A stretch of 64,000 bases of DNA from Siniperca chuatsi. Its lineage: Eukaryota; Chordata; Actinopteri; Centrarchiformes; Sinipercidae. Below, in pieces: positions 57,830-60,800 of this stretch. Under the pieces are notes generated by a model, which saw only the letters and a list, made by a program, of their open reading frames with translations, was not told the origin of the DNA and ran no database searches. Made by a program: the position numbers and the translations under genes. The first letter of the stretch is position 1; each line of letters starts with the position of its first letter. The stretch lies in assembly GCF_020085105.1 (NCBI RefSeq), contig NC_058055.1, positions 10,075,822-10,139,821 of the forward strand, read 5' to 3'.

Positions 57830-60800
57830 TTAGCAGGAACAGGCTCCGTCATTGACAGGTAGCTCTGGTGGCTTCTCCAGCTTAATGTCAATCACTGTAG
57901 GGTTTAGGAGTTAAGGAACATGAAAACTGGAAAATGCAAGTCTAAAATGTACATGAGAGGTTGTTAGAACTAAACAAAACTCGACAACTGCTTTCCAGGC
58001 TTATGTTATTAGAGATACAATTTTAAAGTTTTGTACATACGTAGAAAATTGTTTCACATTTCTTTTCTACTGTGGGACATGACAGGGTACAGAGCTAAAT
58101 GACAATTTGAATCCAAATTTAATCCAGTTTTGTACAAACCAAACGGGAAATGGAATTCTGTGGAGAAAGATCATGTTTTATGTTCCTTTCATGTGACATT
58201 TGACCCCACAGGGAGTTACTTGTAAAAGCTGTAAAAATCATAAACCTTAAACTATTAAAAAGTACCACAAAAAATCCTAAATTTCCTGATGGAAATGCTT
58301 GCTTACATACTATATACACTAACATACTTATCAAAACTGAGGTTGTAAGGTAGATTAACTCTTATTTGAGGGACTGATTACTAAACAACTACCGATCTTT
58401 GTGAACTGAAATTAAGGTTGGGTCTCTTTCTTTGAGTCTCTCATACTTTTTTGACACCTTAGATATTCTAAAAGTGGCAAATTTTTGATTGTGATCTGGA
58501 ACTACCTGATCAAAGAAGTAAACAAGATTAGTTGAAACAGGATTCTCTGCACATGTTCAAGCAATATGCAGCTGAATCAGGTGCTTCTCAGTTAGAGCAC
58601 AGCAAACACCTGTACACCTTTTTTAGGTTGACTATATATGTTGTTTTGTCTTATGTCTTTGTCCATTTTGAATCTGATAAAAACACAGTAGCCTCAAAAC
58701 ATTAGTCTGTTTGCACAATTACAGGCTGCAAATCAATCAGTGAGCTCCAGTCCCTATTTTTCCCTTTGGAAGTAAACACGATTACTATACTCTGTGCTAT
58801 GGACACATTTCAGTCTGTACCAAAAAAGTATTGAGATTCAATACCCAGCCCTACATATCCATTTCAGAGTGCCAGCAGAATCTGGACAGATTAAAGGAAT
58901 AGACTCATTAGTACAAACATCTATCTTTGGAGTATCAAATATATATACAAACTGAACACAAGGATCTACAGATAGAAGTGGCTTATGTAGCAGGAATGGT
59001 TTGAGAAGTTTCTATGGATGTTTAGACGTGTTTTAGCCATGACTGGGGTGCAATCCAAATCGGTATTTCTTCAAGATTATACCCAGTAAAATAGTCAGTG
59101 AGTTGGAGCATAATATGTGCTCTCACTGGTAAAATAAATCTAAAGGGACACATGGGTTAAACAACAATAGCTAGCTGTCACAGCGCTCCACTAGATTTTC
59201 CTTCTGGCAGGGACTATCCATATAACACAACATAAGAGAGCGAGGAGACCTGCTAACTCTCTTCTGTCATGTCAGACACAGACACTGACATGTACACAAA
59301 GGATACTGTCCTCTCTACTCTTGTCTTGTGTGGTATCCATACCAGGGAGGGCGGCTGCCACACGACGGAAAAGCTGCAGGAAGGAGAACCAGATGTGTTC
59401 TGTCAGACAAAGAAATGTACTCAAAGCATGACACACAAGATGAAATCGTGCTGTGTATATTCCCATAACATGATTTAGCATAAGGTTCACTTGAAGCTCG
59501 CACAGAGGAAGACGCCCACCAGAGCTTTTCCTAATTTGATTTGCGTTAACAGCCATGTGTTTGAGCTACTGCAAGGCCATATTTCTGCACTGCAGAAGTG
59601 GCTTGAAAAGAGGGTGTAATTGTGCCTTACTGAGACCTTCCATTGATAGAGCTTGGAGGATTTTAAGTGAGTGATGGATTCAAATGAATTTAAAAAAAAA
59701 AAAAAAGGGACAGTGTTGAATGTATGATGATGCTCAACATGCCCACCCCCCACTAAACAGCATCACATAGAGCTAGACTTGATACACATGCAGATTTTAC
59801 AGCAACAAAAGCACTGCTACTGTGCTAATTAGTAGAGTGGGGAGTATTGGTTTGCAAACCCTGACCCACCTCTAGGACTGTATGATCGAACGTTGGCCAA
59901 TACAAATCATTACCTCCAGCAGGTGGGAGAGAGCTTGAAAAAAAAAAAAAATCCACACACCTCACTTTCGCCAGCGTTTAAAAGCACACCTTTATGCACA
60001 AATGCGTGCGTGAAATAGAAGCCAATCAGAAGACAGCATGAGCACTATGAACACACACACACACACAAACAAAACGTGCACACGCTCTACCTGTTTGACA
60101 TTGTAGCCTGTCTTTGCACTTGTTTCAATAAACAGAACATTCATCTCTTTCGCTCTCTGTTCTCCCTCCTCTGTGGTTATCTGTCTGTGATGAGCCACGA
60201 GTCACCGCGCACAACACACAAACACGCACACATTGCCACAGACATCGACAAGAAGACAAGGGGAAAAAATACAGACTGTGATTATGTTGAAGTGGATTAA
60301 TAAGCCGTGCCCCTTCCTGCTGCTACTGCCACCTTTGCTCGAGACCAAAAGTTGTCCAATAGACCTTCGGGCTGTTCGTTGTGCTCCACAACAGGGACAG
60401 AAGGCTTTAAATTTGGACAGAAAATGAACAATGACAGCTGGTAAATTTACAAAATGCCTATTTTAGAAGGTCTAAATTAATCTAGGATGACTCTTTAAGA
60501 TCTTAGAATCAAACTCCCCCTTGGCAGGAAACCTTTGGAGGTGGAGCCCAGGTGGCAGCACCCACAGCAGGGCTACAGAGCACGACTCACACTTACCTGC
60601 TTTACGTTGTAGCCCGCTTTTGCACTAGTCTCAATAAACATTACATTTAGTTCTTTGGCTTTCCGCTCACCCTCTTCAATAGATACTTGCCTGTGGTAGA
60701 TAAGGGGGGTTAAGAAATGCACAGTGAAAGACATTGCACAATTTACTTCCTTAAACAGGTGGATAAAGTGGATCACACAGTACACATTTAGAGATTAAAT

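Follow-up and report, generated by a model that had tools for sequence, protein, structure and literature searches.

A Tandem-Duplicated Exon Pair Covering the G5 Region of a Fish rab6a Gene and its Probable Origin before the Separation of RAB6A, RAB41, and RAB6B

The rab6a locus and its exon pair

The window, by which we mean the whole stretch of 64,000 nt analyzed here, located at C14:10075822-10139821, contains a gene for the Golgi traffic protein Rab6 that is identified by sequence and synteny as rab6a (Table 1). Three neighbors expected from the human order were sought in the window plus 20 kb: two UCP2/3-like genes in tandem and DNAJB13 are present there, and no match to FAM168A was obtained in that interval. 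We take human 11q13 to carry UCP2/UCP3, DNAJB13, and RAB6A in matching order, with FAM168A as a further neighbor, and against this presumed order the gene combines a Rab6 protein with conserved synteny, as is expected of a RAB6A ortholog.

Table 1. Positions of the exons, the intron, and the neighboring genes discussed in the text (window scale unless C8 is named).
Feature	Position	Strand	Remarks
rab6a exon 1	65001-64932	-	beyond window end
rab6a exon 2	62510..62568	-	
rab6a exon 3	62336..62389	-	
rab6a exon 4	61558..61663	-	one copy; A' type (Ile62, Ala87, Ala88) by comparison with PDB 4dkx
rab6a exon 5	61101..61212	-	terminates in split Arg codon AG/
rab6a exon 6A	60597..60690	-	RAB6A-like; donor CAG/gtaagt (9/9 consensus)
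intron between 6A and 6B	60185..60596	-	412 nt
rab6a exon 6B	60091..60184	-	RAB6B-like; donor CAG/gtagag (6/9 consensus); 10/17 pyrimidines before acceptor
rab6a exon 7	59307..59373	-	
rab6a exon 8	57830..57894	-	CSC C-terminus and stop
UCP2/3-like genes, two	41425-42881 and 49411-50950		next to rab6a
DNAJB13	55016-51183		near rab6a
C8 gene, exon-4 copies	C8:12623001-12633000, locus positions 4467-4572, 5061-5166		
C8 gene, exon-6 copies	C8:12623001-12633000, locus positions 6049-6142, 6551-6644		
arrestin gene	C8:12621453-12623189		one side of C8 gene
PDZD11	C8:12641949-12644469		other side of C8 gene

Exon 6 of rab6a is present in two adjacent copies, 6A and 6B, each 94 nt long, preceded by AG and followed by GT. 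Both start within a split AG/N arginine codon and end with the complete codon CAG, and they are identical at 68/94 nucleotides and, with the split arginine counted, at 24/32 residues. Adjacency, homology, equal length and phase, and an AG acceptor and a GT donor on either copy are all found here, as in mutually exclusive tandem-duplicated exons. The first-pass annotation, which gave no strand, had placed two intact 94-nt exons of identical phase at the positions at which we find them, and both lie on the minus strand. Its claim that the pair covers the ETSAK (G5) region is likewise borne out. The tandem arrangement that it described holds, but its spacing of 413 bp is replaced by an intron of 412 nt, and its estimate of about 9 differences in 31 residues by a count of 8/31. 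The pair is not a product of chance, since 6B agrees with the 6B of another gene of the same genome at 30/32 residues, with 2/13 changes nonsynonymous.

Reading frame and splice sites

When the exons are joined in silico, the frame is kept by single inclusion only. Either 6A or 6B alone yields a complete Rab6 of 208 amino acids ending in CSC. If both are included, the frame breaks, as had been predicted, and a stop appears 101 nt upstream of the last junction; nonsense-mediated decay should act on such a message. Skipping of both leaves a truncated product of 156 amino acids that has neither the G5 motif nor the cysteines; because the stop of this message falls 3 nt downstream of the last junction, the message would probably escape decay. 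These outcomes support the first-pass view of a tandem-duplicated pair, both members intact, that is mutually exclusive by reading frame.

In rab6a, the donor of 6A is perfect and 13/17 positions upstream of its acceptor are pyrimidines, more than for 6B, which is a weak argument that 6A may be the default exon. In the second gene with the pair (the rab41-like gene described below), the donors of 6A and 6B match 7 and 6 of 9 consensus positions and 10 and 12 of 17 upstream positions are pyrimidines, and the two copies are about equal in splice-site quality. The donor of 6B is not unusually weak, and donor weakness was rejected as an argument for regulation, because donors matching at most 6/9 consensus positions occur in 10/15 exons scored, both 6B exons included. 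The donor of exon 7 matches only 3/9 in both genes, and no alternative to exon 7 was found. The non-consensus donor gtagag itself is kept by both 6B exons (60090-60085 in the window and 6645-6650 in the C8 locus).

Conserved intronic regulators were sought in the three introns around 6A and 6B; each of the three intron pairs from rab6a and the rab41-like gene aligned within the range of 100 shuffles, and no block was alignable between the two genes. The intron between 6A and 6B measures 412 nt in rab6a (60596-60185) and 408 nt in the rab41-like gene (6143-6550), with unalignable sequences, and the intron after 6B measures 717 nt (60090-59374) and 718 nt (6645-7362), respectively; these near-equal lengths around 6B may be a coincidence. 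TG-rich stretches flank 6B of rab6a upstream (60230-60213) and downstream (60067-60050), and within this gene they align slightly above shuffled sequences (26 versus a maximum of 25). TG-rich repeats can bind splicing factors.

Related genes in the same genome

A search of the whole genome (719 Mb) with a Rab6 protein, in which 150 of 263 candidates were scored and the counts are therefore lower bounds, gave at least four genes with Rab6-level identity that were resolved exon by exon, namely rab6a itself on C14 and genes on C8, C6, and C13. A genome search with a 27-amino-acid fragment gave no match, and a scan of viral contigs for relatives gave two pattern matches, neither of which was confirmed by tblastn.

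The C8 gene carries a 6A-like and a 6B-like copy of exon 6. It is flanked by an arrestin gene and by PDZD11; the PDZD11 match is the best in the genome, and further arrestin genes match on C7, C13, C14, and C22. Because these flanks agree with the position of human RAB41, which we take to lie between ARR3 and PDZD11, the C8 gene is probably rab41. As judged from its two exon pairs (4A'/4A and 6A/6B), this rab41-like gene could make four Rab6-type proteins.

On each of C6 and C13 lies a gene with a single exon 4, of the A type, and a single exon 6, which is 6B-like and in the C13 gene departs from the 6B-like sequence at residues 137 and 161. The two genes group together with a bootstrap of 93 when exons 2, 3, 5, 7, and 8 are placed in an unrooted tree, and their proteins end IKLDKP...EGGCSC, as we take human RAB6B to do. 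Introns 5 and 6 of these two RAB6B-type genes yielded no trace of 6A. To look for relics of lost exons, peptides of exon 4 or exon 6 were compared with 12 intron stretches of three genes, with 60 shuffles and two positive controls; all 12 stretches scored within the range of the shuffles, and both controls scored clearly.

Two versions of exon 4

Introns 3 and 4 of rab6a were searched for a further exon 4 without success, the best scores lying within the range of 60 shuffles, and the two copies differing at residues 62, 87, and 88 that constitute the RAB6A/A' switch are thus not present in this gene. The rab41-like gene has both: one of its copies reads IRLQ...DSAAAVV and is of the A' type, and the other reads VRLQ...DSTIAVV and is close to the A type. 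The earlier statement that the A/A' duplicate is not seen therefore holds for rab6a but not for the rab41-like gene. The A' version occurs in human RAB6A' (PDB 4dkx), the window's rab6a, and the rab41-like gene, and the A version in human RAB6A (3bbp), the rab41-like gene (with Ile for Val88), and RAB6B. The A' exons of the two genes are alike at 79/105 nt and A' and A exons at 79-85; because the A' exons are no closer to one another than to A exons, exon 4 carries little independent weight, and its apparent parallel to exon 6 concerns three residues only. The two exon-4 copies of the C8 gene are alike at 85/105 nt, above the 79/105 of the A' exons between genes, and this closer likeness is perhaps due to local gene conversion.

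Selection on exon 6 and its relationships

The 6B exons of rab6a and the rab41-like gene are identical at 81/94 nucleotides and 30/32 residues. For this pair (C14 versus C8), the one pair available, dS is 1.07, dN 0.027, and dN/dS 0.025, and 2/13 changes are nonsynonymous (P about 1e-6 if neutral); by this measure, exon 6B shows purifying selection. Between the two 6A exons, again one gene pair only, about 6.5/24 changes are nonsynonymous, so that protein-level constraint is found for both copies. Under a different proposal, 6B would be decaying or act as a poison exon, with its splice sites, rather than the protein sequence it encodes, being what is maintained. The premature stop produced by double inclusion, 101 nt ahead of the last junction, and the 6B splice sites of rab6a, which fall below those of 6A, are what such an exon would be expected to display, but purifying selection on amino acids, with just 2 of the 13 changes nonsynonymous, makes this proposal very unlikely.

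Among the six exon-6 copies of the genome, 10/15 comparisons are saturated at synonymous sites, and codon dating of the pair is therefore not possible. A first base A and the donor CAG/gtagag are common to both 6B exons and are found in none of the other four copies, all of which, RAB6B-type exons and 6A alike, begin with G. The two 6A exons are identical at 70/94 nucleotides, hardly above the values for 6A versus RAB6B-type exons (68-69), and the rab41-like 6A is closer at synonymous sites to the RAB6B-type exons (dS 1.2-1.6) than to the other 6A (saturated). Residues shared with the C6 gene number 28/32 for 6B of rab6a and 30/32 for 6B of the rab41-like gene. Five residues, I136, T137, Q143, R144, and T159, are common to 6B and human RAB6B, and the window's 6A, human RAB6A, and fly Rab6 have V, S, R, K, and A at these positions; because fly Rab6 has the 6A states, the five diagnostic 6B residues are derived. 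These comparisons bear out the earlier description of one exon as RAB6A-like and the other as RAB6B-like.

Constrained trees were compared for nine exon-6 peptides of 32 residues, six from this genome together with human RAB6A, human RAB6B, and fly Rab6. The preferred topology places 6B beside RAB6B. The AU test rejects both a duplication limited to the RAB6A/RAB41 lineage (p=0.005) and an independent duplication in each gene (p=0.0001), and it does not reject a grouping of RAB6B with 6A (p=0.09). When the protein tree is left unconstrained, the group of 6B and RAB6B has a support of 92, inside which the two 6B exons do not form a pair (29). The DNA tree of the six exon-6 copies pairs the two 6B exons with a support of 88 and sets 6A apart from the rest with only 77.

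The first-pass annotation had proposed that the fish gene evolved its own isoform switch, and the absence of the pair from the two RAB6B-type genes would fit an independent origin in the window's gene. However, the rab41-like gene has the pair with an identical start base and donor on 6B, and the AU tests reject separate duplication in each gene and also duplication within the RAB6A/RAB41 lineage; we regard an independent fish switch as extremely improbable. A lineage-specific origin of the pair was rejected on the basis of the second gene and the tree tests. Under another hypothesis, a tandem duplication within the RAB6A/RAB41 lineage was followed by convergent selection that made 6B resemble RAB6B. 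Tandem duplication usually leaves its copies side by side, and the common ancestry of 6B and RAB6B is read from 32 residues only, in which the changes are conservative; nevertheless, the five shared derived residues and the AU test of a duplication in this lineage argue against convergence, which is distinctly unlikely.

A different route to the same exon tree, with 6B beside RAB6B, is that ectopic recombination or gene conversion carried a copy of the RAB6B exon into the common ancestor of these two genes, rab6a and rab41. The transferred 6B would still be a working mutually exclusive exon, younger than the split of RAB6A and RAB6B, and no loss of 6A from RAB6B would be needed, which agrees with the lack of a 6A remnant in introns 5 and 6 of the two genes searched. 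Such a transfer requires a rare interlocus event with exact exon borders, and neither RAB6B-type gene has the first base or the donor seen in 6B, so that we consider it unlikely.

Origin and proposed use of the pair

We consider it probable that 6A and 6B form a functional pair of mutually exclusive exons that predates the split of RAB6A, RAB41, and RAB6B and was later lost piecemeal. In the proposed mechanism, the spliceosome would join exon 5 to either 6A or 6B and then to exon 7, and either product would be a full Rab6 differing in the exon-6 segment alone. Double inclusion should trigger mRNA decay through the premature stop, and double skipping would remove G5 and the prenylated tail. Exon 6A is perhaps used by default, and 6B is perhaps turned on by tissue-specific factors, most likely in neurons, where its use would give rab6a a RAB6B-like G domain. 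The pair would have arisen before RAB6A, RAB41, and RAB6B were separated by the vertebrate whole-genome duplications, and later losses would have left RAB6B with 6B only and the window's rab6a and the rab41-like gene with both. Human RAB6A, which we take to have 6A and to lack 6B, would have lost the other member.

An extension of this history, for which we see an even chance, is that a single Rab6 of early chordates or vertebrates had the pairs 4A/4A' and 6A/6B and encoded four proteins, and that the paralogs divided these pairs among themselves after the whole-genome duplications. According to this extension as a whole, RAB6B fixed 4A and 6B; fish rab6a retained 4A' and both members of 6A/6B; tetrapod RAB6A retained both members of 4A/4A' but of the other pair only 6A; and fish rab41 retained the complete set. 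What distinguishes the G domains of human RAB6A and RAB6B would then go back mainly to a splice choice that the two genes inherited, and each of the two human genes may have kept one half of an old switch.

Consequences for the protein

The G domains of human RAB6A and RAB6B, the sequences of which were taken from PDB chains, differ at 9/170 residues, and exon 6, with its 31 residues, accounts for 6 of these differences (Fisher p=0.0013). Such clustering is what would be expected if each gene fixed one member of an older exon pair. RAB6A is ubiquitous and RAB6B is enriched in brain, and the usual view is that the paralogs diverged after gene duplication. If the pair predates the genes, much of the difference between the G domains (6/9 residues) would first have existed as alternative splicing and only then have been divided. 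Predominant expression of RAB6B in brain is reported in PMC10267580.

In the Rab fold, the exon-6 segment corresponds to helix alpha4, strand beta6, and the residue after the SAK motif of G5 (Ala/Thr159). Judged from this fold, the residues that differ between 6A and 6B would lie away from the switch and interswitch surfaces, to which ELKS, GCC185, KIF20A, and Rab6IP1 bind (PMC10267580). An altered exchange rate or altered partners on the alpha4-beta6 face seem likelier than a loss of classical effectors. If the pair predates the genes, one fish gene would permit the two versions to be swapped within the same protein and cell, as a test of alpha4-beta6 and residue 159.

Comparison with known systems

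A close known counterpart is the mammalian RAB6A/RAB6A' switch, in which, as is proposed for 6A/6B of rab6a, tandem exon copies are used one per transcript to make near-identical Rab6 proteins; this mutually exclusive choice in human RAB6A is described in PMC4914109. The mammalian switch uses exon 4 (residues 62, 87, and 88; PDB 3bbp and 4dkx), not exon 6, and of its two versions the window's rab6a has A' only and the rab41-like gene both, which places both Rab6A/A' exon versions in a second vertebrate paralog. In RAB6B, the corresponding segment is nearly that encoded by exon 6B; RAB6B, however, is a separate gene, and the two RAB6B-type genes found here have a single exon 6 each. The likely fish ortholog of RAB41 (RAB6D) shares the 6A/6B pair and adds the exon-4 pair, for up to four proteins; it lies at a locus distinct from that of rab6a, and human RAB41 is presumably far diverged.

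Rab6a of rainbow trout is reportedly among the top brain-specific splice forms (PMC8321248), and rab6a of damselfish is reported to be differentially spliced in a heatwave (PMC8933327); the text consulted names the exon in neither case. Searches for papers on a duplicated exon in Rab6, and on mutually exclusive exons in the evolution of Rab GTPases and Rab6, gave none in the open-access literature covered, from which the printed literature may differ, and public annotation of fish rab6a may already list the 6A and 6B forms. The main text of PMC9741552 and PMC8146666 does not mention Rab6. Both papers describe a class of vertebrate substitution events between tandem duplicated exons to which 6A/6B would belong, together with a function-sharing model (PMC9741552; PMC8146666) in which duplicate genes divide ancestral splice forms among themselves, the same idea as is proposed here for RAB6A, RAB41, and RAB6B.
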